Below are positions 2,642 to 53,164 of a stretch of 64,000 nt of DNA, in pieces (the stretch's first letter is position 1; each line of letters begins with the position of its first letter). The notes below the pieces were generated by a model. It saw only the letters and a list, made by a program, of their open reading frames with translations, did no database searches and was not told the DNA's origin. Origin of the DNA: Fragilariopsis cylindrus CCMP1102 (taxonomy: Eukaryota; Bacillariophyta; Bacillariophyceae; Bacillariales; Bacillariaceae); contig FMBT01000064.1 in the NCBI GenBank assembly GCA_900095095.1, forward strand, positions 1 to 64,000, in the 5' to 3' direction. The translations under genes were made by a program, and so were the position numbers.

Positions 2642-4077
2642 ATGGTCAAGGACCTTAAGGCCAAGCTCAAAGCCGCCAAAAAAGCGAAGAAGGCTGCGGA
2701 TGAGGCCAATGCCAACGCAGAAAAATTAGCAGAGGAACTAACCAAATTAGAGTCCGAAGCTAAGCCAGACAAGAAGAAGAAAAAGGTCACCAAGAAGGCG
2801 GATTCTGGCAGCGATTCGGATAGTAGTAGCAGCAGTAGCAGCAGCAGCAGTAGCTCAGATTCCGACAGTGACTCAGATGATGATGACAAGAAAAAGGTTG
2901 TCCCTGCTGCGAAGGTCGTCGCTAAAAAGGATGACAGTAGTGATTCCTCCGATTCTGACAGTTCTGATTCCGACTCAGATGATGATGATGAGAAAAAGGT
3001 TGTCCCTGCTGCGAAGGTCGTCGTTAAGAAGGATGATAGCAGTGATTCTTCCGACTCGGATAGTTCTGATTCCGACTCAGATGATGATGATAAGAAAAAG
3101 GTTGAAAAGAAAGTAGTCAAAAAGGACGACTCATCATCTGATAGCGATTCGGATTCTTCTTCCGACTCCGACTCAGATTCAGATGACACCCCAGCATCGA
3201 AGCCACCAAAAGAGGAAAAGAAGCGAAAGGCAGAAAGTGAGGATGCCGTTGAAGAAACATCCGAGCCACCAGTGAAAAAGCAAGCTGTTGCTGCTGAAGG
3301 TGAAGAATCTCAAACCAAGTTATACATCCGTGGTTTGCCATGGAGAGCTGGAGAGGATGAAGTTCGTGAATTCTTTAAGGGATGCGGAAGCGGACCTACG
3401 TCTGTTGAATTACCTCTACAGGATGATGGACGAAGTTCCGGAACGGCCGTTCTCGAATTTGGTGATGCTGACGCTGCAGCTGCTGCTATGGAACTGAACG
3501 GTGCCGACTTTGATGGTCGTTGGTTGTCTATTAAATATTCGACACCAAAACCAATTGGTTCAGCACGTGCCCCAAGCGATAAACAAGAAGGCTGTGTTAC
3601 CATCTTTGTGGGGAATTTGTCCTGGGATATTGATGAGGATTCTCTTCGTGAGGCCTTCAAGGGATGTGGTACCATTACACAAGTTCGCTTTTCAACCGAT
3701 AGAGAAACTGGAGACTTTAAGGGATACGGACACGTTGAATTCGAAGAAACAGAAGCTACTGATGCTGCTGTACAGATGGCAGGAACTGATATTTGTGGAC
3801 GAGCAGTACGTGTTGATTACGCTAACGACAAAAGAAAAGAAGGTGGTTTTGGCGGCGGCGGCGGTGGAGGCCGTGGTGGTGGTGGATTCGGCGGTGGCGG
3901 CCGAGGAGGTGGATTTGGTGGCGGAGGCCGTGGCGGGGCCGCGGTGGTGGTGGATTCGGCGGTGGAGGCCGAGGAGGTGGCCGTGGTGGTGGTGGTGGAG
4001 GAGGCCGAGGAGGCAGTACCTTACACAAGGCATCAGGTGGTATTGCTGCTTTTGCTGGCAACAAAATTACATTTTAA
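2642..4077 (+). CDS. Nucleolin-like protein: acidic Ser/Asp tracts, two RRMs, RGG tail
   Basis: The protein has the order of nucleolin/Nsr1: a Lys-rich N-terminus (MVKDLKAKLKAAKKAKK), three or more acidic Ser/Asp blocks separated by VVPAAKVVAKKDD-type linkers (about residues 50-200), RRM1 (about 225-300, RNP-like LYIRGLPW), RRM2 (about 318-395, RNP2 IFVGNLSW and RNP1 GYGHVEF) and a Gly/Arg-rich tail. Such proteins act in the nucleolus in rRNA transcription, processing and ribosome assembly. I chose the ATG at 2642 because the basic start matches the family; the ATG at 2594 adds a Cys-rich stretch unlike it. The frame slips at the G-run 3935-3938. As read, the RGG tail turns into a Val/Glu/Ala stretch ending at 4129. 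One more G gives a normal tail ending SGGIAAFAGNKITF and a stop at 4077. Long Ser/Glu frames on the other strand are shadows. Confidence 0.88.
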
Positions 4078-16720: not shown

Positions 16721-17366
16721 TCACTCACTCACTCACTCACTCACTCTCTTTTATATAATGAATCATTACCATAGACATTCATATGAAAAATGTATTGCGC
16801 ATATATATGGATAACACATATTGATTGAGGATAAAAATGTATGTACCATTATTATCAAGTTTGGTACCTAAAACAATAACAAATATTACCTCTTAATTAA
16901 GAGGTCTACAGTATGGACAGAAAGAGAATGGAACGGAAACACTCTCTAAATTACATTGTCCTTCCACATACACCTCACACTTGACTCTTCAATTCAAGGG
17001 GAAGAAGAAGCAAATCAGGTAGACATGATAGTATACTTGATAAGAGCTTCAAGTGTGTAATGAGAGAGCATTTATTGTTTATATTATGATGTGTTGAATT
17101 GTGCATAGGGCATTATGATGACAAATGCAAATCTAATGCATGACGTGTGGAAGGCCGCTATAGGTGTAGTTCATTTCTATCTAGACTCCAGTCGACTGAT
17201 AATGTGAGAAGCAATCTACCACAGAAACTGCAACGTATGGATGGATCTGAATTTCTCGCATGTCGAACCTGTTTTGAGCAGATCATTGATCATCAACAAT
17301 ACCTTTGATATCTCAAAGTACCAATATACAAGACGGACTATACATGGGGAGACCATGATGCTATGA
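15952..17366. other. Intergenic region upstream of the bZIP gene
   Basis: This 1.4 kb holds a long CT microsatellite and no gene that I can support. It would hold the bZIP promoter. It ends at the TTAA target of the first piggyBac-like element. Confidence 0.5.
16676..16749. repeat. (CT)n / (CTCA)n microsatellite
   Basis: A CT repeat of about 45 bases passes into CTCA repeats. Confidence 0.95.
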
Positions 17367-17370
17367 TTAA

Positions 17371-17384
17371 CAGCTTTCAAGCTA
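17371..17384. repeat. Left terminal inverted repeat, copy A
   Basis: CAGCTTTCAAGCTA; its reverse complement is at the right end. Inside it AGCTT-TC-AAGCT can fold on itself. Confidence 0.95.
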
Positions 17385-17404
17385 AGGCCCCATATATGGG
17401 GCCT
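17385..17404. repeat. 20-bp perfect palindrome at left end of copy A
   Basis: AGGCCCCATATATGGGGCCT equals its own reverse complement and starts at element position 15. Copy B has a different 20-bp perfect palindrome at the same element position. Confidence 0.95.
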
Positions 17405-17955
17405 GAAAAAGAGCCCCTTTTTTCTTTGGGGCGTTTCTCCCTCAAAAAATGGACTTATACCCCCCTATTGAGACACAGTGCATCTCCGTTCAATGGCACG
17501 TGTCTTTTTATATACTTAATACTACTCCCGAGGAGTTTGTAACAGCCCAACGGATACCCTCACGTGCCCGTACTTACTTAATTAGTGACCAGAACCTTTT
17601 GAATCGGAGAGACGCAAAAATGTGTCGCGCAACGGCCATTTTTGGTCAAATATTCTGATGTGACTCGCGTCCAAGACTCAAAATTTGAAAAATTGTTGAA
17701 GTCACACAAAAAAGAGGCGATCAACGCATCAAAAATATGAGTCAAATGGTCAGTCTTGTAAACTTTGGGAAAATAACTAGCAAAATTTACTAACAAATCC
17801 TTTTTTTCAACTAAATATTTCAAATTTTCATACTAAGTAACTACTAGCTTTGAATATTTAGTCACTAGCTATTTTTGTTAACTTTACCACGCATTTTACG
17901 TATTTTCATAATATTACAATCCAGTAAGAAATATAATTAAAAATATTCAACTACA

Positions 17956-20900
17956 ATGGCACCTAGGACAAAGAAAATTGATGTAGAATGGGCCGATTCA
18001 CTAGTAGGACTATCTGTGAAGATACCCGACCACTGGTGGGTTGGTTATACTGGATCATATAAACATGATGGTAAGATAATGTCGTTTGATATAGTGAACC
18101 AAAAATGGTTTATTGAATTGGATGATCAAGATGATGATGATCAGTATCTCATTGCATATGATGCAATCCTTGAATACTGCAACACACAGCACTCTACCAT
18201 TGAATCATTCAATCTCCCTTTTGAAGTCGTACGACAAGGAGATGATGAGATTGTAACTGAGGATGGAACCATGTACTCACTAACGCCGACTGAGGAATGG
18301 ACCAAAGTAGAAGATGGCAATGGACGTCCTATTGAACCGATTGAATGGTCTGGTCGAAACAATGAGTTTAGTGTTAACATAACACCAGAGGAGATCCGAC
18401 TGTTAATGGATGATAGGAGAGAGATTAGGTATGAGAAAGTATTTGAATGGTGTCTTCCTAAGTTTGGTGATGATAATGATCAATCTTTATTTGAATTTCA
18501 ATCTGCAAGAATGAGAAATTATATGAAGAAAAGAATGATTGAAGATGCATGGGTCCCAAGTACTACAGTTGGGAGAATGAGATTGAAGCTGACCATGTAG
18601 CTCGTTTCTATGGAGCCATGCTTGCTAAGATGCTTTGTGGTAATCGATCAATCAATCAAATATTCTGTACAAGGGAAATCTTCAATGCAGTACCATCATT
18701 CAAGAATCAATGCCAAAGAATGCTTTGGAAGATATGACTAGCTGCCTTCACTACAGTGACGATTGGGACCTTATGGGAGCTGATGATTGGTTGGATATAT
18801 ATGAAACTAAAGTCGATGCTGACCCTAATATGGCAGTACATCGATTGAAGTTTGGTATATTAGAAGATGCATATAATAAGGTATGTAGTGTTGTTGTTGT
18901 TGTTATTATCATGTTTCGAATCAATTACTAACCTACCTTCCTTCTTCTTCTTCTACTTACTACTTACAAGCGGTGGCAAGCTGTAGTTCATGCTGGAAGA
19001 TGGATCACAACTGATGAGAGTCGAGTGGCTGGCTGGTATCATAGTGTCATGACTATAGGACCAGAGCCAAAACCAATTCGAACTGGTGCTACTCTACATA
19101 CTGTCTGTATCACTGAAGGTCCCCTACATACATACAAGTTGTTTGCTAGGGTCTATGGTGGTAGATTTGATGAGGATGTGGACGTTCGTTGCAGCCATAC
19201 TGCAACGAAACTCAAGATGGTGTCTCTCTACGACCTTATGCTTGAGCCTTACAAACATAAGGGTTGTTGAAATCTTAACACGCACGACGGACAGACCGCA
19301 AATACCGTTACTATCGCGCACCGATTCAAACAGTAAAACAAGCCAGTCAAACACCAAATCCAATTCAAACAACAAATGCCTATCATCACTACTAACACAA
19401 GCAACACAGCGTCTCAAGGACAGCCTAAGATAGAGCCCATAAATCGTTTAGAACAACCTTAATAACTCAACTAATCTCTTATCTAAACTAGAATCTCAAC
19501 AGTTCTAAACGATATTGTCGCAGGACACGAAACTAGACCTACTAACCCACGAAACAGTCAGCAGTAACCAACGACGTTTCGCAAGCATGACGAAAGTCTT
19601 AATCGAATATGACTACTCAGGCATTGACCGAGTAGTTGGAATACCAACAACAGGACAGTTAATTACATTCCAGAAGCAGATGGCAAAAGTACAAACCAGT
19701 TACAAATGCAACATCGCGGAAGCAAAAGACCATGGATGGTCATGGATAATGTGCACTCAAGCGCAGTGGATACTAAAACGAGGAATCATAGCACAAGTAC
19801 CAGTGCCAACCAATCCAGGTCCATACATAGGAGACACCAACATCCTCAATGCAGCACACAAACAAGCGCTCAAACTCTATCAAGAATACGAGGAACACAA
19901 GCGCAACACCAACAAAGCAATCCAAGCATGCTTTGATGAAGATTTATTTATCGAATTAGAAACAGATGGATTATTACTCGGAGTTTCACCACACGAGGTG
20001 TACCAACACATGTGGATGAATTTTATCCTAACAGTTGACAAAGATCGTGAAATCCTACATGCACGAGAACTACTCAAGGTAGATTACGACCAGATCGAAT
20101 AGTCCAACACTACTACAAGGCAATCAACGAAGCAAGAGAACTACTAACTGGTCTCCGCGAAACTGTAACAGATGCAGAAGTGATGAGGAATGCATATGCC
20201 ACCTTTGAAAAGAACATCGACTTAAAGGATGCATGTCGTGAATGGAACAGAGGGACATTAACAACATGGGAGGAAATGAGGAAACACTTCAGCAAAGAGA
20301 TCCAGATGAATAAAACAGATCCAGCCATTATGAAAAGAACAGAACTCGCAAATGCAGTACTAGCACAAAACAAAGAAGACGAAAATACGCAACGACAAGC
20401 AATTGAATTAGGACTACTACAAACACAAAAGATCCAGGAACTAGAGGCAAGGATCGAACAACAACAACTCGCAAACAGCGCAACCAACCAGGTCCCCGGA
20501 CGGATCCCAGCTTCAATCAGCACAGGCAGCAGCAATGGCAGCGCCGGTGGTAGTAGTGCAACAAGCACTGTAACCAAAGAAGAGATGATGCAGATGTTCG
20601 CACAATTCACTCAAAACAACAACCAAGGTGAAGGCAATGCAGGTACAGCAAAGAAGAAAAAGAACAGGTTTGACGGCGAGTATATCCGGAATGATCTAGG
20701 AAATGGAGAACGATCGAAACGCAGATATCCGGATTCAACCAACTACTGCCCATCGTGTGGATACGACATCAAACCAACACACACACCAGGCACCTGCACC
20801 AACCGAAAAGCCTGCCACAATGAAGCAGCTACCCTCACTAACAAAATGGGAGGAGTCACTACCAATTGCCATTTCGTAACCTGAAGATGTGGGGAGGTGA

Positions 20901-23900
20901 ATAGTAAGATAAGTCAAAATAAAATAAATAATACTGATTTAAACAATTACACATCATCTTCGCGTACCAACAAGCATATATCATATGCAGCAGCAGTAAC
21001 AACAATAGAGATAGCAACCGTTTGTCAACCCTCACAAACAATTCAAAGCACTACTAATACCAACACACCACAGGCCATCCGGATTCAGCAGCAACCAGCA
21101 TGTTCTATCAAACAAACACAAGCACCTAGGAGAAGCACTACACACGAAGAAATCAATGTAGGAGTAGCCAACACCAACACGATGAACTCTGTAACAACCG
21201 ACAGCTACAACTAGCACCAGAACTGCCAATGGAAGCACAGAAAGCACATGGATTCAAGAAATGGAACGATCATAATATCGTACCAGTACTATGTGATGCC
21301 GACTGCACAGTAGTATTCAAAAAGAAAAATGTCAGGTAATCAAAGCAAACAAAATAATAATTGAAGGACCAAGAGACGCTGAAACAAACTATGGTTGATG
21401 CCACTAGAAAGAATAACACAACGGAACCAATCAAGAGACCATTTGTGATCCAACTAAAGCACACGCCAACAGTGCTACCAACAAAAATCAGCATCACAGC
21501 TACAAGCATGGCACCATGCAACGTTAGGAGCTCCAGTTGTCACAACACTAATCAAAGCAATTGACAAAATTGGTTAACATCATTCCCAGGATAACATCCA
21601 ATGGCATCAGAAAACACCTACCAAAATCAATCCAAACAACAATGGGGCATCTACACAAAGTAAGAAAGAACCTACGCCAACAGACAAAGTACAGCAGAGG
21701 AAATAATGGAAGATGAAGAAGATGATCCAGACTATCTACCACCAAGAGAAATCAAGAATCGGAGCACATTGTACAGATAACAGCAGTAAACTTTGAGACC
21801 TGAAAGGAATGACCTCAAGTGATCAAACAGGTGCTTTCCCAACACATCATCAGAGGAAACAGATATATCATGGTGATGGAGATAGTGATTCAGGAGCAAT
21901 ACTAGCAGTGGCAATCAAATCACGAGCAAAAGAACACCTATTAGCAGGATTCATTGAATGCATGATACACTGAAGAAAGCAGGCATCAATCCAGTACTAC
22001 ACCGAATAGACAATGAATTTTCGAAGGAACTCATCGAAGAGATAGAATCAAGAGGATTGAAATACCAAATAGCACCAAGAGGCAACCATCGAACCATACC
22101 TGCAGAAAGGGCAATACAAACAGTCAAAAATCATTTCGTATCAACACTGTATGGGTGTGATCCAACATTCCCAAAAGCCAATGGGATAGATTACTACAAG
22201 TGCAATATAACACTAAACATGCTACGGCCATCACGAATCAACCCAGCAAAGTCAGCCTACAATGAGTTATGGGGAAATTTGACTTCAACAAAACACCACT
22301 AGCACCACCGGATGCCTCATTGTAGCACATGAGAGACCACAGGATAGAAAAACATGGGCAGATCATGGAGTAAAAGGTTACTTCATTGGACCAGCCAAAC
22401 ATCATTATCGGAATTATAGAGTATACATACCAGCAACAAGAGGAGAAAGAACAACAGATACAATTGAATTCTTCCCTGAACATGTACAAATGCCAAAGAC
22501 ATCATCAGAAGATAGACTAGCAAGTGTAACAGAAGATTTAGTAGCAATACTCCAAAAACCACATCCACCTACGCCATTTCTTGATCAAGGAACAACAACA
22601 ACGACGCCATTGACAAGTTACGGAAATATTCACTCCTAGACAACAGAATGAATCTACAAGGGTGCCGGCATGGGCAGCTACAAGGGTGGTGGGTAATCCA
22701 GTGGAAAACCAACAACAATTCTTCTGAACCAAGATCCGAACCGAGTAGGTGATCCAGGGAAAACCAACAACAATTCTTCACGAACCAAGGTACGAACCGA
22801 GTAGCTACAAGGGTGGCATTACCAACAATTACCGAAGATGAGATAGGAACCAAGATATGAAGAACTACAACAACACCATCCAACGAGGAGAAGTCACCCA
22901 CTACAATGAAAATGAAAGATTATATTTCATTGAATATGAAAGTGGAGACAAGAACAAGTTAGCAGTAGAACACTCAACCAGTTCGATGCATTGATACAGA
23001 CAAAGATCTAACAAGACGAATGACCAGATTATCAACAAGACTACAAAGGGCCAACATCGTACGACAAAACAGAACAATCCATCAGCAGCAGGAGGAAAAC
23101 TACCAGGACACTTTGCAATGACAGTATATGATGAAGCAACAGGCAAAATGATAGACTACAAACAACTAGTCAACCACTCAGACAAACAAACACGGGAATC
23201 ATGGCAAAAATCAGCAGCAAATGAATTTGGCAAACTTTTAAAAGGAGTAGGAAAGAATGAAGATGGCACCAACGAGTCAAAGGATCAGACACATTCCACT
23301 TCATAAAAGAAAACAAGTACCAATAGGAAAGAAAGTAACGTATGCACGATTCTGTTGTGATGTACGACTACAGAAAGATGATATCAATCGAACAGACTAA
23401 CAGTAGGAGGAGACAGACTACATATGATGGAAAAACAAGCACAGAAACAGCTGGACTGGAAACAATCAAGATACACCTCAACAGTACCATATCAACCAAG
23501 AATGCGCAGTATGCAGCAGCTGATATAGGAAACTTCTACACAAATTCAAAACTCAATCATCTGAATACATGAGAATTCACCTAAGCTTAATCCAACAGAA
23601 ATCATAGAAGAATACAATGTAATGCAATATGTGGAAGCAGAGGATATGCCTATGTAGAGATCACAGGAGCATGTATGGACTAGCACAGAGTGGTCGAATC
23701 GCAATGAAGACCTCCAAGAACACCTAGCACAGTATGGATATATCCAACCAAACGAACACCAGGATTATGGAAACATAAAACAAGACCAATCAGCTTCACA
23801 CTAGTAGTGACGACTTTGGAGTAAATACACCAACAAAGAGACATTGATCACTTATTCGCAGCAATCAAAGAAAAATATCCACTCAAAATAGATTGGACGG

Positions 23901-26195
23901 ATCCAAATATATAGGAATTGATCTAGAATGGAACTATGAAAAAAGAGAAGTAAAACTATCATGAAAGGGTATGTAAAAGAGCACTACAGCAATTTCAACA
24001 CCCAACTCCATCAAAACATCACTATGGACCAACAAAGTATGTAGCACCTGAATATGGAAAGAAAGTACAATATACCACGGAAGATACAACACCGGAACTA
24101 ACCCTATTACAAAAGAACCACATCCAGAAAGTATGTGGCAAATTCCTATATGATGGAAGATCAGTCGACAGCACACATTACACGCACTCAATGAACTAAG
24201 CATCAAGGCAACAACAGCAACAGAGGACACCAAGCAGCACTAATACAATTCCTAAACTACTGTGCCAGCAACCCAGATGCAACCATCATTTACAGAGCCA
24301 GTGACATGATATTATCATGTGACAGTGATGCAGCGTACTGTGTAGCACCAAAATCAAGAAGCCGAGCAGGGGCTATCACTATCTAGGCAACAAAATGGAA
24401 CCCAATTCAATGGACCAATATATGTACTAGCAAAAATAATCAAAGCAGTAATGGCATCAGCAGCAGAAGCAGAAGTGGAGCATTGTACATGAATGCACAA
24501 GAACTAGCACCAATGCGAACAACACTAGAAGAACTAGGCCATCCACAACCACCAACACCACTCCGAACAGATAACAGTACAGCAGATGGAATAATGAATA
24601 AAACAATCAAACAAAACAAAGTAAAGCAATGGACAAAAGATTCTACTGGGTACAGGACAGGGTGGAACAAGGAGAATACAGAGTATTCTGGGCTCCGGGC
24701 AAAGTTAACCTCGCCGACTACTATACCAAATACCACTCACCAGCCACACACAGAAAACTAAGACCTATCTACACTTATATTGAAGGTAAGAGCCCAACTA
24801 GCTTGCAAGGGTGTGTTGAAATCTTAACACGCACGACGGACAGACCGCAAATACCGTTACTATCGCGCACCGATTCAAACAGTAAAACAAGCCAGTCAAA
24901 CACCAAATCCAATTCAAACAACAAATGCCTATCATCACTACTAACACAAGCAACACAGCGTCTCAAGGACAGCCTAAGATAGAGCCCATAAATCGTTTAG
25001 AACAACCTTAATAACTCAACTAATCTCTTATCTAAACTAGAATCTCAACAAGGGTCATTGTGTTGTCATGGATTCTGCTTACATGGGTGATGCCATGTGT
25101 CAAGTTGGAAGAGAGGAGTGGGGTATTAACATGGTTGGTACTTGTCAATCGTCTCGGACTGGTGGTGGAAAGTTAGGCAAGCTTGCTATCAAGGAGAAGG
25201 AACTCGTAAAGGGCACACACAAGTCTCTCCTCTACCAACACAAGACCAAGCCAATTGTGCATGCTGTTTGGGCTGACAACAACTTTGTCAAGACACTTTC
25301 TAATTTTCACTCTCCTACTATTGTTGAGGGTGGAATGAAGAGACGAGTAAGAGATCCAGTCACCGGCAAACGATCTAGGGACCAAACTGATGTTGATTGC
25401 AATGCTCAACAGATTGACTACTGCAACACCTATCACAAGATTGATAAAGGCAATGGGGCCGAAGCCAAGTATGACCTATCAACTGAATCCCATCTCCATG
25501 GTTGGGCTCCCAAGTTAGCAGCCCGTTACTTCAATATGAATCTTAACAATGCTTACAAGCTGTACTGTGTTATTTATAAGATGGTCCATCCTGACAGGAA
25601 ATGTATGCCTTTGAAAGAATGCATACATAATTTGACACACTCTCTTCTTCAAAGAGGTGATCCTATGTGACAGCGGGATTATGGCGCTCCTCCAAGCGCC
25701 ACAAAGGATATTACTACTTCTACATCTGTGGATGGTAGAAGTATAAGATCTGATTCAGTTATCCAACCATTTTCTTCTCCAGGAGCCAATGGGACTGGAG
25801 GAATGCATGCACGTACTCCCCAATCATCTATATCGTCTATAGATAAAAGTACTATCTATAGACAGAAGAAGAAATTTCGTAAAGTAATGAAGCAACTGCC
25901 GGGGAGACGTCATCAATCATTAGCAATGGTGCTTCCTAATAAGGTGTACTGCAAGTACAAGTTGTGCCCTGGTTGGAATAATCCCCTGGAAAAAAAAAGA
26001 GCACATAGAACAAACTATAAGTGTGAGGAGTGTACTATTGAGAAGGGATACGATATGTGGCTTTGTAATACAGTCAAGGATGGCATTGCAGTTGAGTGTC
26101 ATATTAAGTATCATGCAGGTGCAGAATTTGTACTGAAAACTCCACCAGGTAGTACTACTGAATGTAGTGTTGTTTCTGGTATGACAAATGAATAG
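17956..26195 (+). CDS. piggyBac-like transposase of copy A, interrupted by Copia
   Basis: The gene starts at ATG 17956 (MAPRTKKIDVEWADSLVGL). An acidic N-terminal part is followed by a DDE domain of the DDE_Tnp_1_7 type, with TTDESRVAGWYHSVMTIGP, HCVVMDSAYMGDAM and AVWADNNFVKTLSNFH. A C-terminal Cys/His-rich zinc-binding region follows: YCKYKLCPGW, YKCEECTIEKGYDMWLCN and VECHIKYH. An intron at 18881-18970 (GTATGT...AG, 90 bp) is shared with copy B. The Copia element splits the codon run after EPYKHKG; sequence resumes at 25056. Frame slips sit at CCC 18555-18557 and T 18706, each mended by one base. A TGA at 25668-25670 stands where copy B has Arg, and looks like a true stop. With the insertion and this stop, copy A should make no full transposase. 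Confidence 0.9.
18881..18970 (+). other. Intron in transposase A
   Basis: GTATGT...TTACAAG, 90 bp, with a GTT repeat and a CTT repeat. Its position and much of its sequence match the 83-bp intron of copy B, so the intron predates the split of the two copies. Confidence 0.85.
19265..19501 (+). repeat. 5' LTR of the Copia element
   Basis: 237 bp, starts TGTTGAAATC and ends AATCTCAACA; identical by eye to the 3' LTR. Confidence 0.95.
19510..20890 (+). pseudogene. Copia gag region (fossil)
   Basis: A capsid-like region ending in a Cys/His-rich part with CPSCGYDIKPTHTPGTC, typical of diatom CoDi gag proteins. It is broken as given. Confidence 0.7.
20890..24790 (+). pseudogene. Copia pol region (fossil)
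   Basis: Integrase-like sequence lies near 21.9-22.5 kb, reverse-transcriptase-like sequence near 23.1-24.2 kb, and an RNase H part with LRTDNSTADGIMNK near 24.5 kb. The region is broken many times as given. Confidence 0.7.
24814..25050 (+). repeat. 3' LTR of the Copia element
   Basis: 237 bp, the same as the 5' LTR, followed by the AGGGT target duplication. Confidence 0.95.
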
Positions 26196-26330
26196 ATACT
26201 TAACCAGGTAATATATAACCTCTGTTTAATGGAGATCATGTCCGTATCTTCTTTTTTACTGTAGTTGAGTGGAAGACCACATATTATTAGCATGTGTGTG
26301 GTTACTCGGATTTCCCATTATCAATCTTGA

Positions 26331-26344
26331 TTTTCGATCGAAAA
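26331..26344. repeat. Conserved palindrome in the piggyBac tail, copy A
   Basis: TTTTCGATCGAAAA, also kept in copy B at 27394-27411 as an 18-bp version. Unlike the terminal palindromes its sequence does not differ between copies. Confidence 0.9.
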
Positions 26345-26434
26345 CACTGCTATTTAGCGCGTGTTAATTTAGCGCGCTTCATGGTTTATGTACTCAAATC
26401 CGTTGTCTAACTTCAGCGTAATAAAATCTTCCAC

Positions 26435-26449
26435 AAATCCATTGGATTT
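26435..26449. repeat. Tail hairpin, copy A
   Basis: AAATCC-ATT-GGATTT, a 6-bp stem with a 3-base loop, right after CCAC in the transposon tail. Copy B has a different hairpin at the same place. Confidence 0.75.
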
Positions 26450-26649
26450 GGCTAGAATGATATTATTAATAACTGAGGTGTCTAGTTCAAGTCCATCTAG
26501 CGCCATCTAACAGGCTGAATGATTTTGTATTTATCTAGCAATCAACCAGTGAAAATTCGCTATATTTTCTAAGTTAAATTATTTTTTTTGGAAAAATAAC
26601 ACGTGAATTAACTAGTAAAAAAAATTAGAAATCGGCAAAAAAATCCTTA

Positions 26650-26663
26650 TAGCTTGAAAGCTG
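26650..26663. repeat. Right terminal inverted repeat, copy A
   Basis: TAGCTTGAAAGCTG, followed by the TTAA target site. Confidence 0.95.
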
Positions 26664-26667
26664 TTAA

Positions 26668-27073
26668 TAGTGCTACTATTCTGGATGCAAAGTTACATAA
26701 GCGACAAAACATTCTGTCCATTCACTTTGTTAGAAGTAAGTATGATTGCATGTGGATACATTAATTTGCAGCACCTTAAGTCAGAATGCAATATTGCCAA
26801 TTATAAGAAACGCTCCACCTTTATGTTTCATTGTTGATGAATTGTAATAACCATAGACTAAATAAACAAGTGTGTAAATATAACAACCTTTTGCGTTTGA
26901 ATTGATTGAGATATTGCCTTAGTATATATATATACATATATATATATCTACATATGAATAACCACCATCCGGAAGGTTAGGTCTGTATTCAAAAGGGTGA
27001 GTAGCCTGGTAGAACAACCCCAACATTCTATCTAGGGAAGTGAGTAGCAACCCTTACCATATTAATAACAAGA
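26668..27073. other. Spacer between the two piggyBac-like copies
   Basis: 406 bp of AT-rich DNA with a short (TA)n run near 26925-26950. No gene is seen. It separates two tail-to-tail transposons, so it is the only host DNA in the 13-kb block. Confidence 0.6.
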
Positions 27074-27077
27074 TTAA

Positions 27078-27092
27078 CAGGATTCCTGTTAT
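27078..27092. repeat. Tail-side terminal inverted repeat, copy B
   Basis: CAGGATTCCTGTTAT. Together with the flanking TAA, TAACAGGA-T-TCCTGTTA is a 17-base palindrome. Confidence 0.95.
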
Positions 27093-27289
27093 AAGGATTT
27101 TTTTGCCGATTTCTAATTTTTTTTACTAGTTAATTCACGTGTTAATTTTCAAAAAAAAAAATTAACTTAGAAAATATAGACTATTTTCAGTGGGAGAAAG
27201 CTAGTGAAAGACAAAAACATTCAGCCTGTTAGTTTGCGCTAGATCGACTCGAACCAGTGACCTCAGTTAATAATATTATCTTTTCAACC

Positions 27290-27305
27290 AGTTCAACCAA
27301 GAACT
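27290..27305. repeat. Tail hairpin, copy B
   Basis: AGTTC-AACCAA-GAACT, a 5-bp stem at the place where copy A has AAATCC-ATT-GGATTT. Confidence 0.75.
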
Positions 27306-27545
27306 GTGGAAGATTTTATTACCTTGAAGATTGACAAGCGGATTGAGTATATATAGCATAAAGCGCGCTAAATTAACACGCGCTAAATACAGTGATTTTC
27401 GATCGAAAATCAAGATTGTTAATGGGAAATACGAGTATACACACACATGCTAATAGTATGTGGTGTTCCACTCAACTAAAGTAAAAAAGAAGATTACATA
27501 CAAGATCTCCATTAAATAGAGGTAATGAATCACCTGGTTAAGTAT

Positions 27546-29994
27546 CTACTCAGTTGTTAGCTCAGAAGCAACAGTACTAACACTAACACTACCTGTTGCT
27601 GTTGTCTCATATAATTTCTTTTCCACATGATATGCTGTGTGACAATCAACTACTACCAACTTTCCATCCACATCCTTGGTTGAATTACAAAGGAAAAAAT
27701 TGATTCCCTTCTCCAAACCACACTCTTCACATGCATACTTTGACTTGTAGGCTCGTTTTCTCTTTGCTCCAGTATTCTTACCAGGACAGTTCTTGTACTT
27801 GCAATAAGATGAAGCATTATTTCCCTTAACCACCACTGGAACGATATATGATTTCTTCCAGGCTGGTGTTCCTTTCGAAGCTTACAAGAAGCTTTACGAT
27901 AACGAAGAGCCCGACCAGTAAGATCAGATACTGGTGTTTGAGGAGTTCCAGTGTGTACTGTAGGGGAGGTAAAATGTTGTCTAAATGCATCAGATCGAAG
28001 TTTTCTTCCATCCAAAGAAGATGAGGTAGTAGTAATATCCTTTGTAGCACTTGGAGTATCTCCAAAGCCTCTAGTCCGAATTTCGGATCCTTGTTGCAGT
28101 AGTGAATGAGTCAAATCGTTGATACATGATCTCATTATCATTGGGGTCCTATCAGGATGGTACTTGGTGTAAAGGTACTTGTAGATGTTGTAGGCATTGT
28201 TAAGATTCATATTGAAAAACCTAGATGCTAACTTGGGCGACCAACCATGCAGATGCGATTCAGTAGAGATATCATACTTAGCTTCACTTCCATTCCCTTT
28301 ATCAATCAAATGATATGTTTGACAATACACCCATTGTTGCTCAGGGCAATCAACATCAGTGAAGTCCTTGTTCCTCCTGTGTGTTACTGGATCCCTCAGC
28401 TTTCTCTGAATTCCTCCTCTTAGAAGATTAGGACCATGAAAGTTAGAAAGCGTCTTGACATAGTTGTTATCAGCCCAAATAGCATAGGTAATGGGCTTGT
28501 CCTTGTGTTGATACATAACTGATTGATGTGTACCAACCTTGATCCCTCTTGCAGCCACAGTTGCCTTACCAAGACTACCAGCACCAGTTCGATTGGTTTG
28601 ACAAGTACCAACCATGTTGATTTTCCATTCTTCTCTTCCAACTTGACACATGGCATCACTCATGTAAGCAGAATCCATGACAACACAATGACCCTTATGC
28701 TTGAATGGATCAAGCATAAGGTCATAGAGAGAGATCATCTTGTATTTTCCATAATCATTGATCTCTGGAATATCTTCATCGAATTGACCACCATAGACTC
28801 TAGCAAACAACTTGAATGTACTGAGAGGACCTGTAGTGATACAGACAGTATGAATAGTAGCTCCAGTTCGAATCGGTTTTGGTTCAGGTCCAATTGTCAT
28901 ACAGCTATGATACCAGCCACCAACTCGACTCTCATCTGTAGTAATCCACTTGCCAAAGTTGACAATAGCTTGCCATCGCTTGTAAGAAGAAGAAGAAGAA
29001 GGAAGGTATGTGTTAGTAAGCGATTCGAAACAACAACAACAACAACATATACAGTACATACCTTATTATATCCATCTTCCAATAGACCATGTTTCAATCG
29101 ATGCTTTGCAGTGCCTGGTGGTGCAATACTTTTGGATCATCATATATGTCATCCCAATCACTACCACACTCTGGATCCCAATCGTCACTGTAGTGCAAGC
29201 ATGTAGTAAGATCCTCCAAACAAGCTTTGGTCATTGATTCTCTAATCGATGGAACGCATCCATGATCTCTCTTGTTGAAAATATCTGATCAATCGATCAC
29301 CTCCATGGATCATTCTACATAGACAAGCTCCATAGAAACGAGCCACATGGTCTCCAGTTATCACTTTATCTCCTTTGTAATACCTTGGCTTGAAGCCATT
29401 TTCAAGAACTCGCTTTCCTCATATAGTTTCTCATCCTAGCAGCTTGGAATTCAAATAGAGTTTGATCATTATCATCACCAAATCTGGGAAGGCACCATTG
29501 GAAACCTTCTCAAACCTGATCTCTCCATCAATGTCCCTTAACGAATCTAACTCTTCATCAGTTATCTTAACAGTGAACTCTTCATCTCCTTCCCATGCAA
29601 GTGGTTCAATCGGACGACCACCAGTATCATCCACATCTTCAATAACAACCTCATCCCATTCTCGGCTCTGTTCTAAAATATTTTTTTGTTTCTGTTTCTA
29701 TTTCATCATCACCATCTCGAATAGGTTGTTGTGTTAGTTGGAACTCGTTGTAAGTGGAGGAATCGAAGTCTGCATACTTATAGATAGCCTCATATGCCAT
29801 GAGGTAGAGAGCATCATCTTCTTTAGTATCTAATAATAAATTCCATCGTTGACTGATTTGACAATATGAATCAATACACCATCATGTAGCTATAGCCTTT
29901 GCAACCATCCCACCAGTAATCAGGGACCTTCATAGACAGTCCTACTAATGATTTGGCCCATTCGACACTGATTGGGCGTCTTTTAGGAGGCATT
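27546..29994 (-). CDS. piggyBac-like transposase of copy B
   Basis: It starts at ATG 29994 (MPPKRRPISVEWAKSLVGLS). The first exon is in short frames; the intron is 29061-28979 (83 bp). The second exon holds the DDE domain with TTDESRVGGWYHSCMTIGP, HCVVMDSAYMSDAM and AIWADNNYVKTLSNFH, and ends in the Cys/His region YCKYKNCPGKN, YACEECGLEKGINFFLCN and VVDCHTAYH. It has no counterpart to the TGA stop of copy A. A frame slip near 29502-29504 is mended by one base, giving WCLPRFGDDNDQTLFEFQ as in copy A; another lies near 27840-27860, and more seem to lie in the first exon. If the slips are sequence errors, this copy could encode a whole transposase and serve copy A in trans, which is inference. 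Confidence 0.85.
28979..29061 (-). other. Intron in transposase B
   Basis: GTATGT...TTACAAG, 83 bp, at the same place as in copy A (after ..DGYNK, before RWQA), again with GTT and CTT repeats. Confidence 0.85.
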
Positions 29995-30541
29995 TTATTG
30001 CCATTTATGTTAAAATTTTGTTTTGGGTGTGGTTTGTAATATTATGAAAATCGGAAAATGCGTGGTAAAGTTACGAAAACAGCTAGTGACTAAAATATTT
30101 TTACTAGTAGTTAGTTAGTATGAAAATTTGAAATATTTAGTTGAAAAAAGGATTTGTTAGTAAATTTTGCTAGTTATTTTCCAAAGTTACAAGACTGACC
30201 ATTTGACTCATATTTTTGATGCGTTGACTCCTTCTTTTTTTTAAAACTTGGTTCATTTTTCAAATTTTGAATCTTGGGTGTGAGTCACATAATAATATTG
30301 ACCAAAAAGAGGGTTGCCCGGCACGTTTTTCGACTCTCTATATTTGAACACATGCTCTTCCAAATTTTATTTAGGACTGCAGCTGCCAGAGTAGTAACAG
30401 CCAATACATAGTGACCGGGAGTTATTTCAACTTAATAAGAAAGCACGTGTCTTTGAACGGAGATGCACTGTGTCTCAATAGGGGGCTGTAGGTCCATTTT
30501 TTGAGGGAGATATACCCCCACAAAAAATAGACCCCAAAAAG

Positions 30542-30561
30542 TGGCTCTCAGCTGAGAGCCA
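30542..30561. repeat. 20-bp perfect palindrome at the leader end of copy B
   Basis: TGGCTCTCAGCTGAGAGCCA equals its own reverse complement and begins at element position 15, as in copy A. Six of ten half-site positions differ from copy A, each with the matching change on the other arm. Confidence 0.95.
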
Positions 30562-30575
30562 TAACAGGAATCCTG
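30561..30575. repeat. Leader-side terminal inverted repeat, copy B
   Basis: ATAACAGGAATCCTG, followed by TTAA. Confidence 0.95.
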
Positions 30576-30579
30576 TTAA

Positions 30580-31019
30580 TAGCATCTTTTTCACCCAATG
30601 TTTGTGAAACATATCATGCTGCTAAGGAGTAATGACTTGGTCCTGTCCTTGGCGCTACTATTACTACTACTGCTACTAGATGACCATCATTTGACTGACC
30701 TCAGTAATTTCCTGTTTGTCTTAGTTTATCCTTTTCATTTCCTTTTTATATCTTGGTTTTGTCTGTTGTGCAACTTGGAATAGGCTTTCTTCTATTGCTA
30801 GTATAGTTCAATCAACACAGTACGGTTCTACAAACTTATGGGTCTGCTTCTGAGGTAAGGTTGATGATGGAAAGCTGATTAAAAAATGTACCAAAAGAGC
30901 TGATCATCGAGCTGGAGGGAAAACAAACATATAAAATATAACAAGGCAAATTAAAAAATTTGACCTACTAGTAGCCTAGCGCTTCTATTCAAATTTACAT
31001 ATTTCAGTTCGAGATAAAA
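30580..31019. other. Intergenic region between copy B and the Clp gene
   Basis: 440 bp at the 3' side of the Clp gene. I see no gene; the frame at 30598-30783 is low-complexity Leu-rich and probably chance. Confidence 0.5.
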
Positions 31020-47338: not shown

Positions 47339-50300
47339 TTACCAGTGTTTTCCGTGTACCATTGCCATTTCTGTTTGTGTTACATCGACGAATACTGGAT
47401 CAATTGCTCTCCTATTGGGTCTGCTTCCATATACTCCTTTGTTTAGTAAGTTGTTGTCCTCGCAGTGTTGGTCTAATTCTCTGAAATACATCGAGAATAA
47501 TAGATTAAGGTCACATTCATAAAGGTGTATGACTCTCATTCTGTGTATGCGCGGTATGCCTGTGTCTTTCCCCAGCATGCATGTCAAGATGTATTCCCAT
47601 CTTTTGTATACGTGTTCATTGTCATAAGCTGTTTGTAACATGGTTGCATGTAATTCAATTATTTCGTCTCGTATGTTATCCAATTTCTCTCTTTCTTCGT
47701 CATCTTTTGCCTTTAGTGGGCGAAACAGCGCGTGGAAGTGTCCTAGATGTCTCCCTGATGGTGATGTGCTTGTACGTTCTTTCCATCTCATATATTTGTT
47801 CATCATCTTTTCTGAGGTTATTTCGATTTTTATTTCAGCAGAGTGTCGCTTCATTGATTTAAGTAGATATCTAGACCATTCATCATCTGTTATTTCCTTC
47901 GGATCACCTGTTCCCTCTAATAGTTCGTTTGCTATATCTGTGTCTGCTCCAAATCCTATTTTCTTTATTATTTCTGGTGTTGCTAATGGTGTGGATTCTG
48001 CCTGTCTGAAGTGTCTTATATTCTTTTGTAGTATTACTCGTTCGATTGTTGGTCCGTCTGTTATTGCTAGGTACTCAATCTCGATCCCTTCCTTTGGTAG
48101 TGGTACCAGTATGGATGACATCTTTCCTGAGTTCTGTTTTGATGGTAGTTCAGACATCATTTGTTTAGTATCTTTTGCTCGTTGGAATATCTGCGCTGCT
48201 CTTTTTGCATCCATTTCAGGGTTCATTGCTACATATGCTGCCTCCTGTTCCTCTCCTATGCTAGTCGTCTTTGTTCTGTTATCTCTTATTAATTTTCTTC
48301 TTTTCTTCTGCGCTAAACTCAGTGCTTTGGAGGCTTCTGCAATGTCTTCTGGGAGTTGTATTTGGTTCTTCAACAAGAGCTGCTTTTGCTGTATTTGGTT
48401 GCTGCAATCGATATCGTTTTTCAGGCTTGACAAGTGGATTCTCAGTATATTTGCTGTTGTCATCACTTCATTCACTTCCTCCGACCATGGTTCTCTATGA
48501 TGTATTCTGCACTGTTCTTCTGCTTCTAGCATCACTGCTGTTATTTCTCTGTCAAGTGCCTCCAATTTCTTCTTTTCGTACCAGTTCTTTTGTTGTTTTA
48601 CTCTCCTGTATATGTCTCTCATCTTAAACACCTTATGTAAGTGTTCCACATATTTTGTAATATTCTTTGGGTGTGTTCCTCTGATTGCTCTTGATGATGC
48701 AGAAAAGATTGATGGTAACTGTCTATCAAGAAAGCCATCCAGTGCAAAATCAACGAAATAGCCTTTGTGATCTGACGCTATTCTTTCATGGAAAGACTCA
48801 TACCCACTCCGTAGAATATGGTCTACTAACCGTGGTGTTACAAATACATAGTCCAATCTTTTTGATCCTCTTGTGTAGGTTGTTATGTCTATTATTCCAT
48901 GTTGGTGGCTGTGCACATCTGTGAGTCCTCCGGCTAATATTACTTTTGCCATGCCATTTGGATCATCTCCCACTAATTCATTGAAATCACCTGTTAAAAT
49001 AATGTCTTTGTCTTCACTCCTTGCTTTCTTCACTAATATTGTTAGATCTTCTATAAAAAGTTTCTTCGGATCTGGCTCTCTTATGTTCTTTAGCTTATAC
49101 AGCGATATTTGTTGATTGAATAGAGTGTCTTCTCCTACTTTGGCATTTTTGTGTTGTGATACATTATATGCTGTTAGTACCATTATTTCTTTGTTATCTT
49201 TTCCTATTAGGGTGTATCCGCACCATCTTCCATATGGATCAGTTATTGTTTCCCGTACCCTTCCTACTAGTGATCCTGTTATTCCTACTAGATTTCCTCC
49301 TGGTTTTGTAAAGTTTAATACTGGTGCTGTGGATGATGAGTGTACTATTTTACAGTCTTCATTAGTATCTCTCCACATTCTTTGTTTTGACATTCTTGTA
49401 ATGCTTCTTGCTAATGCATTTGATTCATCACCATGTGTTTCATTGAATGTAAATATATCAGCCCCTGCTTGCTTCATTTCATTGAACGCCGAGTCTAGTC
49501 CTATGCCTTCTCTATCATATATTCCACATACATTTTGGCAGTATAGTCTTATATATGGTGTATCGTCCAGTGTTGTATCTTCACATATATGTCCGAATGG
49601 CAGATTTTCTTTTGTTATCTTCATTTTATTCTTTGTTGTTGTTGTTGTTGTTGTTGTTGTTTCTGTCTCATTGTCGTTGTTATGATTATTATTATTCTGT
49701 ACACTATCTTCTTCTTCGCTTTCATCTTCACTTGGCTCAAAGAATAGGTCTTCTTCACTGTTGTTTCCATTTCCATAGTCGCCGTTATCTCCTATAGCTC
49801 TTGTTGTTGTTGTTTCCATTGATACAGTGGTTGCAACCTCATCGTTGATAGTACTGGATTTTTCAATTCGCGATAATTTAGTCCTTAACTCACTATTTCG
49901 TACTGATTTAGTGTTTATTCCTTCACTATTTCGTTCCTTTCGCGATAATTTAGTCCTTATTTCCTCGTCATCCTCACTATCACTGTCCTCTCTGTCTCTA
50001 TCCTGTAGTCCTGGCATGGTGTTGTTATCATCTTCATCTTCATTATCACTCTCATTATCACTATCTTCTCTATTCCTTTCCTGCACTCCTGTCATTCTAT
50101 TTCCTTTCTGTACGCTACTTATTCTTTCTATTGCTTCTTTTAGTTTCTTCGGTCTTGTGTCAATCGGTAGCTGCTCTCGTGGATTATCTTCTTCACTATC
50201 ATCATCCGATGATTCAACAGCACCGTATCTACTAGTTAACTCTGGTATATTTGTTTCATTATTGTTGTGTTCTTTAAATTGTTTTCTTGATGCTATTATT

Positions 50301-50782
50301 TTCTTCTCCTCATTGTTCTCATTATCATTATCACCTCTATTCATTTGATGGATTCGTATCTGTCTTTGCAGATGTATTTGTTGTTGTTGTTGGTTTGTTA
50401 TTATTATTGAATTGACTGAAGTCTCCTGCTGCCAATGCTGTTTGTTTTGCTGCAGGTATTGGTCATTATCTTCCATTGTTACATCGTTTGATTGTTCATT
50501 TGTAGTCGCTTCCATTTGTTCTTCTATCATGTCTTCTTGTTCTCCTTCTTCTTGCTCATCTGTTGTACCATTTTCTACTGTTGATAATGCTGTTGTTTCA
50601 TCATCATCTAATCCATGTTTTGGTCGTTTGTTGGAGCTTGTTGATTGTTCTTGCGATTGACTGTATTGGCTGTTAGTTAAAGTACTTGCTGGTGTAGATC
50701 CTTGTTGTAACTCTATTACTGGTTGTATTTCACTTATTGGTGATCCTTGTCTTCTTTCTTCATTCTTTGTCATTAGCATCAT
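47339..50782 (-). CDS. LINE ORF2, N-terminal half: low-complexity leader and endonuclease
   Basis: An open frame of 1,147 aa. The first 410 or so residues are Asn/Glu/Asp/Thr-rich with repeated motifs (NRE/DRE-DSDNE, ELRTKLSR). Then comes an exonuclease-endonuclease-phosphatase domain: IRLYCQNVCGIYDREG, TFNETHGDE, ILTGDFNELVGDD, RLDYVFVTPR and IASDHKGYFVDF, with Asn, Glu, Asp and His residues at the usual catalytic places. This domain nicks target DNA to prime reverse transcription. The frame ends just inside RT, where the protein carries on in another frame. Confidence 0.9.
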   Translation of the reverse strand: MMLMTKNEERRQGSPISEIQPVIELQQGSTPASTLTNSQYSQSQEQSTSSNKRPKHGLDDDETTALSTVENGTTDEQEEGEQEDMIEEQMEATTNEQSNDVTMEDNDQYLQQNKQHWQQETSVNSIIITNQQQQQIHLQRQIRIHQMNRGDNDNENNEEKKIIASRKQFKEHNNNETNIPELTSRYGAVESSDDDSEEDNPREQLPIDTRPKKLKEAIERISSVQKGNRMTGVQERNREDSDNESDNEDEDDNNTMPGLQDRDREDSDSEDDEEIRTKLSRKERNSEGINTKSVRNSELRTKLSRIEKSSTINDEVATTVSMETTTTRAIGDNGDYGNGNNSEEDLFFEPSEDESEEEDSVQNNNNHNNDNETETTTTTTTTTKNKMKITKENLPFGHICEDTTLDDTPYIRLYCQNVCGIYDREGIGLDSAFNEMKQAGADIFTFNETHGDESNALARSITRMSKQRMWRDTNEDCKIVHSSSTAPVLNFTKPGGNLVGITGSLVGRVRETITDPYGRWCGYTLIGKDNKEIMVLTAYNVSQHKNAKVGEDTLFNQQISLYKLKNIREPDPKKLFIEDLTILVKKARSEDKDIILTGDFNELVGDDPNGMAKVILAGGLTDVHSHQHGIIDITTYTRGSKRLDYVFVTPRLVDHILRSGYESFHERIASDHKGYFVDFALDGFLDRQLPSIFSASSRAIRGTHPKNITKYVEHLHKVFKMRDIYRRVKQQKNWYEKKKLEALDREITAVMLEAEEQCRIHHREPWSEEVNEVMTTANILRIHLSSLKNDIDCSNQIQQKQLLLKNQIQLPEDIAEASKALSLAQKKRRKLIRDNRTKTTSIGEEQEAAYVAMNPEMDAKRAAQIFQRAKDTKQMMSELPSKQNSGKMSSILVPLPKEGIEIEYLAITDGPTIERVILQKNIRHFRQAESTPLATPEIIKKIGFGADTDIANELLEGTGDPKEITDDEWSRYLLKSMKRHSAEIKIEITSEKMMNKYMRWKERTSTSPSGRHLGHFHALFRPLKAKDDEEREKLDNIRDEIIELHATMLQTAYDNEHVYKRWEYILTCMLGKDTGIPRIHRMRVIHLYECDLNLLFSMYFRELDQHCEDNNLLNKGVYGSRPNRRAIDPVFVDVTQTEMAMVHGKHW

Positions 50783-50789
50783 AGATTGT

Positions 50790-53164
50790 TCATTGTTTTG
50801 TTTGATTGTTCATTGTTGTTGTTTGTTGTATCATCATTTGTTTGTTTGTTTCTGCTTGTTGTATCATCATTTGTTTAATTGTTTCATTTGTATTTGCTGT
50901 GCCTGTTGCTAATGAATTGACTACTGTGCTTAGCGATTCAACCATTTTTGACACATTTGTCATCATTGTTTTTGCTGAATCATCTGGTGATAAGTTGGAC
51001 ATAACTGTTCCTATTTCTGCTTGATTTGTTGTTGCTGCTTGTTGTACTGCTGGTGGTGAAGCCCATTGTTGTATTGGTAGTGCTGATTGATGTTATGCCT
51101 TCCGTTCTTAATGATACTCCTAGGTACTGATGGTGCTGCTTGGATGCGTTTGTTCTTCCATTGCAAAGCTTCCATGGTACGAGTACTGTGAACTCTGGTA
51201 TTTCGATTGGTGTTTTGGGTTTTTTCTGTATCTTTCTCTAATCTTTTGGCTAAGTTTTCTGCATGTCCGCTATTGTTACAGTATCATTCACTAATGGGTA
51301 GTTGTTCATATGCTTTGATGCATTCCATTGCTGCTGGTCTGTCACTACTTTCTTGAAACTCCTGAAACATTTTCCCAATTGCTTTCTTGCTGAATCTACT
51401 TTATTTGCTGGTACAATTACTATATATTTCCTTTGTTGCAGTTTCATTTGTCTCTTCAATTGATATAGCTCCACAGTTTCCTAGTATAAATTGTTGTACT
51501 GTCACCTGTGTAGAATTTACTACCTTAACATTGCCATACATATCGTCGAATACGCTGGGTGCAGTTGAGTATAGTAATGGTTAGATTGTTTTGAAGTTGC
51601 TGTATCAGCTACTATTTGTCCATATAATTCAAATCCAAGGTGTTGATTTAGCTTTTGGGATGACTGTAGTGCTCCCAGGAGTTTCTCGGTAGCATTGCCA
51701 TAGTTCCATCACCATTTTGCCTGTGTTTTTGTTGTCTTTAGTACTATTCCTTCGCATACAGCTTGGTTGTTATATGCTCCTCCTCTTACTGTTCCTCTGT
51801 GGCATTCCACTCTAACATCGCTTGACAGGTTCTTTATTTGTGCTACTTGTTGGGGTGTTAGTTTATTTCCATTCACAATGTCTTTAATTCCATTTTGTAT
51901 TTTCTTTCCATTGCTGGCCTGAATACTAATCTGCTATGTCCTTTTTCAACAAATCCTACTTGTTCCAGTGTGTTGTCATTGATGAACGGACTGTTCATGT
52001 ATAGTTGATTATGGTATAAATAGTTATGTATTTTGTTTTGTAGCTCTTTTTCATTGTGTGGCATTGATACTTTCATGAATGTTTGTTGATTTGTATTGTC
52101 TCTGTTTCTATTTTGATCAAAGAAATCATCGTAGCTTGCTGGTGTCTTGGGAAAATCATTGTTTATATTGATTATGTCTCTTGGAACTGGTGATGTTGCT
52201 GAGTTTGTTGGGTGGAATATAATTGTTGGTTCTCTGTGCTGCATTTCTCTCATTACATTCTTAATAATAATTTTTCCATCTTTACCTGCTTTATGTTCTG
52301 GTCTCCATGCAATTGTAAAAGTATATGTTGCCATGTCTGTTGGTTCTACTATGGATACTTTTGCTGTACGTCCTCCTCTCTTTCTGTTATTGTTATTGCT
52401 GTTGTCTCCGTTGTCTGTGTTTCCATTCTTTCCATTATTTCCACTATTATCGCTTGCATTATTTTCTGTTTCTTCTCCTTCTTCTGCTTCCACTTGACTG
52501 TAGTCTGTTGCTAGTCTGTTGTTTTCTGTGTCTCCTGTTTCCTGACTTGCTGTAGCTACGTTGATTCGCTTGTTATTGTTTCGCTTGTTTTCTTCTTTTT
52601 CTGTTGATTTGTTGCTTGTTCCGCTGCTTTTTTCATTCTTTTTGTTGTCTTTATTTCTGTTTTCTTCCATCAGTTCCTTCGCTTCTTCGTTTTCTTCTTC
52701 TTCTTCTTTCTCTTCTGTTTCTACTGGTGCCATTAATCTTTGTTCAACATATTCTTTAAGGGTGAATGATAATTCCTTGGTATGTGCTGGTGTGTCCGGT
52801 ATGTTGCATCTGTTGCTGCGTATCGGCGATTCAATTTTTACTTCCATTGCTCCATTCTTCACCTTCTTAGTTTCAATATTAATAGTTGTTATGATCGAAT
52901 CAATAAATGGTTCTTCTTTGTTCTTTGTTTTGGGTTTTCTGCTTCCATTTGTCTTGATCTTTGTCCATCCTTGTTCCTCAGTCAGTTCATTGTCGCTAAT
53001 GCCTATAATTCCATTTTGCTGTTTTCCTTCAATTTCATCGATTTTTGGTCCAATTTGTCCCCGCTTCTTGCTTCCTTGGTGGACTCTATTGATACATTGT
53101 CATACATGTCTTCTCCATTGGTGTGGCTCCATCCATGTTGGATTAATACTTGCTTTGTTATCAT
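50790..53164 (-). CDS. LINE ORF1 (frames broken)
   Basis: It begins at ATG 53164 (MITKQVLIQHGWSHTNGED). The longest piece, 51873-52862 (329 aa), has an acidic, Asn/Glu/Lys-rich half and a structured half (YTFTIAWRPEHKAGKDGKII, HNYLYHNQLYMNSPFI). A slip at the T-run 51900-51903 is mended by one base and leads to QNGIKDIVNGNKLTPQQVAQ. Later pieces at 51250-51474 and 50790-51002 end in a Met/Gln/Thr coiled-coil-like repeat. It probably packages element RNA, as ORF1 proteins do; no zinc knuckle is clear. Confidence 0.7.

Follow-up and report, generated by a model that had tools for sequence, protein, structure and literature searches.

A palindrome at the left end of piggyBac-like transposons in Fragilariopsis cylindrus varies with the cysteine-rich domain of the transposase

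The stretch of Fragilariopsis cylindrus CCMP1102 DNA analysed here (contig FMBT01000064.1, positions 1 to 64,000; the window, which is contig C54 of the 67.9-Mb, 818-contig assembly that was searched) carries two copies of a piggyBac-like transposon: copy A on the forward strand (17371-26663), and copy B on the reverse strand (27078-30575). In this family a 20-bp palindrome at element positions 15-34, just inside the left terminal repeat, varies from copy to copy together with the C-terminal cysteine-rich domain (CRD; a predicted zinc domain) of the copy's own transposase, and the neighbouring 13-bp terminal repeat varies with the transposase core. A single CRD residue, 724 in the numbering of a reference protein, matches the palindrome class in all 23 intact copies outside the A-types. 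We consider it probable, at roughly 85%, that the palindrome is the left-end site of a CRD dimer and the terminal repeat the address of the core, that the two modules are swapped between copies with their matching ends, and that residue 724 is the main switch of specificity.

The palindrome and the covariation of its arms

The palindromes of copy A (AGGCCCCATATATGGGGCCT, 17385-17404) and of copy B (TGGCTCTCAGCTGAGAGCCA, 30542-30561, reverse strand), both proposed CRD-dimer sites, are perfect over 20 bp and begin at element position 15; they differ at six of the ten half-site positions, with every difference matched on the opposite arm, just as the first-pass annotation of this DNA had described. 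A genome search that was blind to the palindrome, its pattern having N at all of element positions 15-34, gave 75 matches, about eight of which would be chance matches as estimated from base counts (a reversed-pattern control gave one). At least 8 of the 10 position pairs are complementary in 60 of these matches, 5-7 in six and at most 3 in nine; a family in which most members lack a palindrome at this place, the outcome that the first-pass annotation had named as fatal to its idea, is not what the genome holds. Of the nine poorly paired matches, seven appear to be unrelated to the family; in the other two, which are family ends, most of the palindrome is gone, and deletions within it are also seen in C354 and C303. 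A pattern for left ends of the A type added nine matches, three with perfect palindromes and six with imperfect ones (6-7 pairs). When starts 1-100 are compared over 15 full-length copies, start 15 leads clearly, with 8.6 of 10 pairs (runner-up start 5.6, median 2.2).

Compensatory change was scored against shuffled data, the check proposed in the first-pass annotation, within the same genome. The set comprised 31 distinct 20-mers, 27 from the blind search and four from the A-type search, seven distinct rows with at most 3 pairs having been removed beforehand. Cells changed on both sides number 63, compared with 26.2 ± 3.9 after shuffling, and the covariation score is 0.416 compared with 0.118 (0/500 shuffles in each case); 84.8% of cells are paired, against a maximum of 47.2% under sliding. 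Two other counts are unexceptional in the same set, namely pairs changed on both sides (7 vs 5.6 shuffled, 37/500) and further pair types (16 vs 15.6, 265/500). Four bases, G17, C18, C20 and C32, are invariant in all 31 rows, and changes confined to one arm do occur, with position 19/30 unpaired in 6 of the 31. The palindrome TGGCTCGC-(GGTG/CACC)-GCGAGCCA is present with its asymmetric centre in both orientations, GGTG in five copies and CACC in three, as is TGGCTCGG-(GGTG/CACC)-CCGAGCCA, in four copies and one, respectively. Seven short derivatives of 532-592 bp could be paired, and since six of them, found by the blind search with 8-10 of 10 pairs, retain the palindrome, it is kept without the gene; of the seventh (C614), only the first half was seen.

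A repetition of the palindrome at the right end was considered and rejected: when the last 500 bp of 15 copies were searched with each copy's own 8-base half-site, allowing one mismatch, there was a single match, in C420. Perfect 20-bp palindromes that contain all four letters number three in the window, two of them being the left ends of copies A and B. The third, TGATTTTCGATCGAAAATCA, is at 27393-27412, in the right part of copy B; copy A carries GATTTTCGATCGAAAAC near 26330.

The first-pass annotation also pointed to a pair of short hairpins in the tails of the two copies, and held that they behave in the same way as the palindromes. The hairpins are present, AAATCC-ATT-GGATTT at 26435-26449 in copy A, directly after an AATAAA, and AGTTC-AACCAA-GAACT (forward-strand reading) at 27290-27305 in the reverse-strand copy B; they align with each other and their arms are mostly matched. 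In the family this hairpin is located approximately 210-230 bp from the right end, directly after AATAAA, with seven sequence types in 15 aligned full-length copies and two more in C52 and C53; all six pairs are kept in six of the nine types, and five pairs in the other three. On inspection it tracks neither the CRD nor the palindrome. The tail hairpin is a real feature and is separate from the palindrome.

What the palindrome and the terminal repeat follow

Distances were correlated among the 21 copies that have core, CRD and left end. The palindrome follows the CRD (r = 0.76) rather than the core (0.33), and the terminal repeat follows the core (0.73) rather than the CRD (0.27). Partial correlations separate the two further: for the palindrome they are 0.73 with the CRD given the core and -0.03 with the core given the CRD, and for the terminal repeat 0.71 with the core given the CRD and -0.10 with the CRD given the core. 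The split is cleaner in 12 deduplicated copies, without the A-types and C504, where the palindrome correlates with the CRD at 0.61 (p = 0.001, which like the other p values is optimistic, as the copies are related and have converted tracts in common) and with the core at -0.09, and the terminal repeat correlates with the core at 0.74 and with the CRD at 0.01. Along the protein, the association switches from core to CRD at reference residues 620-680. The trees give the same double dissociation: palindrome class changes more often on the core tree than on the CRD tree (10 vs 6 times), and the inner terminal repeat less often (2 vs 8). Variable bases of the terminal repeat in the 21 copies are 4-5 and 9-12, plus 6 in one copy. 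The inner repeat correlates best with reference residues 201-260 and 541-640 (0.66-0.75), each of which, mapped by eye from the order of the protein, would correspond to one half of the helical domain.

Within the CRD, the match with the palindrome can be narrowed to one position. In the 23 non-A copies whose palindrome is intact, which comprise 14 distinct CRD haplotypes, residue 724 is R in 7/7 copies of the GGCGCCCC class, M in 5/5 of the GGCTCG class, K in 3/3 of the GGCTCTC class and P in 8/8 of the GGCGCCA class; read against palindrome positions 19-22, the correspondence is R-GCCC, M-TCG, K-TCTC and P-GCCA. Of the 26 variable CRD columns compared over the 14 haplotypes, 724 alone partitions the classes perfectly, a result reached by 0 of 20,000 shuffles, although the p value is optimistic, because the classes were named after the sequences had been seen and the shuffles take no account of relatedness. 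If column 724 is left out in building the CRD tree, the residue and the palindrome class each change five times on it. Two close CRDs, those of C420 and C723, differ at 4 of 67 residues. The residue is the X of [AP]Y-X-SKY, five residues ahead of the second cysteine pair; it is R in copy A (AHRTNYKC; CRD coding stretch 25947-26117, forward strand) and K in copy B (AYKSKYACEECG; 27609-27809, reverse strand, in a frame that differs from that of the upstream part). The A-types with R724 have C at position 21 in 3/3 cases, like the R class. In the M class, residue 738 goes with position 22, I with G in 2/2 copies and A or V with C in 3/3; I738 with C22 is also seen outside the M class, so the 738 rule is local.

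Copies have exchanged CRD and core as modules. C648, C599a and C205 have one CRD haplotype and one palindrome in common, yet C648 and C599a are merely 58-79% identical in DNA over 701-2650 and their terminal repeats differ. Copy A and C59 share their terminal repeat and core, with 98-100% identity over 586-2050 except for 49% at the junction of a long terminal repeat (LTR) element; their palindromes differ at 7 of 20 positions, and identity is 46, 57 and 78% in the three windows of 2651-3100, which cover the linker and the CRD. Copy B compared with C599a resembles the copy A/C59 pattern (terminal repeat 1.00, palindrome 0.65, windows of 2651-3100 0.67-0.85).

A mechanism can be proposed in which each CRD of a dimer would read one half-site at the left end. 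The two CRDs would be identical and related by two-fold symmetry, and a change of CRD specificity would then select the same change in both arms; the symmetry of the protein dimer would account for the joint change of the arms. The 13-bp terminal repeat would be an address of its own, for the transposase core to read. Core and CRD would be exchanged between copies by recombination or gene conversion, and mobility would be kept only when the palindrome travels with its CRD and both terminal repeats travel with the core. Within the CRD, residue 724 would act as the main specificity switch. The first-pass annotation had offered a cruciform, a hairpin intermediate or a dimer site as reasons for the palindrome, and the last of these is the one that the associations support.

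Several observations weigh against this proposal, in addition to the optimistic p values mentioned above. C303 has K724 with a GGCGCCCC palindrome whose last four bases are deleted, and had been removed before the 23 copies were counted. In the C59 group of the A-types, K724 occurs with C21 in 5/5 cases, compared with T21 for K elsewhere; the palindromes of this group are imperfect, with 6-7 of 10 pairs. In C504 and C205 the left end lies about 9 kb from the CRD, and an intervening insertion was assumed; the match is 21/21 without both. The outer bases of the terminal repeat (4-5) do not discriminate, changing twice on the core tree and three times on the CRD tree; they correlate with CRD windows too (0.59-0.73). 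Weak (open) branches make up 10/18 of the core tree and 12/16 of the CRD tree. Searches of solved-structure sequences gave no piggyBac-related match and no relative of the CRD, the weak matches (best E values 0.48, 0.077 and 2.2) being to other proteins, and the structure predictions are of low confidence, with a mean pLDDT of 40 for the CRD and 30 for the whole transposase. Among copies added as further tests, left ends were not found at the expected place for C596, the second C603, C715 and C809/C567, and C694 and C242 begin too near the contig starts for this check.

Noncoding DNA supplies a further objection, which leads to the alternative that survives best, namely that palindrome and CRD agree through joint inheritance or conversion with no functional coupling between them. 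The copies are related and have conversion tracts in common, and the palindrome is tracked by noncoding DNA at 101-200 (0.55) and 301-600 (0.62-0.68) in seven deduplicated copies and at 35-300 (0.64-0.68) in all 15 copies, the latter set being weighted by the divergent A-types. Simple linkage nevertheless fits poorly, and we regard it as improbable. The palindrome and the CRD are at opposite ends of the element; the terminal repeat, which adjoins the palindrome, scarcely tracks it (r = 0.19 in the 21 copies, -0.09 in the 12); and in the seven deduplicated copies the palindrome is not tracked by the DNA at 35-100 (0.13), at 201-300 (-0.03) or at the right end, 3151-3450 (-0.28, -0.29).

Slightly less probable is an explanation of a kind that the first-pass annotation offered, in which the palindrome acts through its structure, as a cruciform, a DNA hairpin or a hairpin intermediate, and the letters drift as long as the arms pair. 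The strong covariation of the arms is in keeping with such a role, and so is the fact that piggyBac transposition goes via hairpin ends (PMC7351741). However, the letters are not free: they follow the CRD class, and a copy's own CRD predicts them; G17, C18, C20 and C32, moreover, do not vary at all. The known piggyBac hairpin forms at the tip, at the TTAA, rather than at bp 15-34. Nor is a hairpin conserved in the terminal repeat. The left repeats of copy A (CAGCTTTCAAGCT, 17371-17383) and copy B (CAGGATTCCTGTT, 30563-30575, reverse strand) do fold perfectly on themselves, as had been noticed at first pass, but the repeat types CAGGATTCAGGTT and CAGGATTCAAGCT of other copies do not, and conserved self-folding was rejected on this ground (all by inspection).

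A one-step rewriting of both arms, by template switching or inversion inside the palindrome, would make the symmetry mutational and selection unnecessary. The two palindrome types found with their asymmetric centre in either orientation are what such a process would leave, but it explains neither the CRD match nor the residue 724 match, and one-arm changes persist; as a full account it is slightly less probable again. Hairpin-templated rewriting or inversion could plausibly coexist with reading by a dimer and supply it with variants. A role as RNA hairpin, insulator or terminator near the 5′ end of a transcript is very improbable: a GC-rich hairpin followed by a T run is found in left ends of the blind-search type, but the palindrome is retained in six short derivatives too small for a gene, only a single G-U cell lies outside the centre, and matching with the CRD is not predicted.

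The proposal of a CRD-dimer site and a separate core address can be taken one step further, with somewhat less than even confidence. The family may have evolved, within one genome, a natural recognition code in which residue 724 (refined by 738 in the M class) sets the palindrome, the core sets the inner terminal repeat, and recombination shuffles both key-lock pairs into lineages without cross-mobilisation. If so, transposon lineages would share one genome without mobilising each other. Such a code would bear on the open question of how the specificities of a transposase and of its ends can change jointly, when either change alone should be fatal. At least four CRD classes and at least three inner terminal-repeat types, together with their recombinants, form a natural series in this genome; the proposed one-residue switch is directly testable, and the series could yield orthogonal pairs of ends and transposases.

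The family and its two copies in the window

Membership of the piggyBac superfamily is indicated by the PF13843 (DDE_Tnp_1_7) domain, above cut-off in copy A (24978-25556), in copy B (28190-28882) and in the reference protein, and by TTAA at both ends of both copies (17367-17370 and 26664-26667 in copy A; 27074-27077 and 30576-30579 in copy B). Genome-wide, 40 right ends were found that end in TTAA, which was itself part of the search pattern (one mismatch allowed; no control matches). By eye, the D residues at reference positions 327 and 414 are candidates for two of the three catalytic acids, with no clear candidate for the third. Left and right terminal repeats are identical in 26 of 30 paired copies, with one mismatch in three and two in one, although ten of the 30 had been preselected at one mismatch or fewer; in the fairer set of the 20 other pairs the repeats are identical in 17 and the inner part is equal in 19. 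These 20 pairs use 20 of the 40 right ends found, the remaining right ends being unpaired. The Cys/His pattern of the CRD is present in 37 rows, which were found through this pattern itself and include some copies more than once; the CRD cysteines are invariant in 10/10 aligned. On inspection the pattern looks nearer to the piggyBat/PiggyMac kind, and may be that of a piggyBat-type cross-brace fold with an upstream histidine ligand.

Both copies in the window are broken. In copy B the transposase frame is interrupted at several places, and copy A contains an LTR-type insertion of approximately 5.8 kb (19265-25050, forward strand) with direct repeats of 237 bp at 19265-19501 and 24814-25050 and a 5-bp duplication, AGGGT. 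The two repeats are identical, and the insertion is therefore recent. Two open reading frames of this element, 19509-20102 and 20051-20884, were scanned and had no Pfam match. The right terminal repeats are at 26651-26663 in copy A (AGCTTGAAAGCTG, the left repeat inverted) and at 27078-27090 in the reverse-strand copy B. ARAGORN found no tRNA in 17000-31000.

Elsewhere in the genome, similar multi-copy clusters of the family occur at C809:60514-76000, C567 and C449 (L018, L019 and L027, respectively), and in L027 two neighbouring copies meet, right end to left end, at a common TTAA. C648 (L012), C420 (L011) and C299 (L014) have stop-to-stop transposase frames of 826-840 codons, and the family may therefore be recently active. 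Further along the window, a reverse-strand frame of 1156 codons (47339-50809) includes an endonuclease/exonuclease/phosphatase-like stretch that scores 24.4 bits against a Pfam cut-off of 24.5; the frame sits in strongly AT-skewed DNA and is perhaps a non-LTR element.

Comparison with known piggyBac systems

The first-pass annotation knew of no description of such palindromes in this superfamily. In fact, piggyBac and piggyBat are known to have a subterminal palindrome to which a CRD dimer binds (PMC7351741, PMC11707139); in the literature searched, which did not take in a large survey cited in PMC13405395, we found no covariation of palindrome and CRD, no residue code and no swapping of CRD and core with matched ends.

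In piggyBac of Trichoplusia ni, the left end consists of a terminal repeat and a 19-bp palindromic internal repeat; the first 16 bp are gripped by the core, whose helical domain occupies the major groove at bp 9-14, and the palindrome (bp 17-33, centre near bp 25) carries a CRD dimer (PMC7351741). The present family is similar in its TTAA target, its short terminal repeat and the palindrome just inside it, which is centred at 24.5 (15-34), and the proposed reading of separate stretches by core and CRD is the same. It differs from piggyBac in that both piggyBac ends carry the same palindrome (PMC11707139), whereas here only the left end has it, and its sequence takes many forms within a single genome. 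In piggyBat of Myotis lucifugus, the CRD sites are also at the left end only (PMC11707139, PMC13405395), which agrees with the left-end-only dimer site proposed here, and the CRD Cys/His pattern looks, on inspection, more like this kind. However, piggyBat has three imperfect palindromes with repeated core motifs, in contrast with the one nearly perfect palindrome of this family, and no series of matched specificities is described for it in the portions available, whereas here there is a series of matched classes. In its place, its size and its restriction to the left end, the palindrome agrees with the CRD-dimer sites known from piggyBac and piggyBat.

CRDs are diverse in the superfamily, that of PiggyMac does not bind DNA, and the available data were said to show no straightforward correlation between the transposon end and the CRD fold (PMC8086355). 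The diversity of CRDs is a likeness to the PiggyMac group, and the results presented here bear on the latter statement: within this one family, the sequences of the CRD and of the transposon end do correlate.

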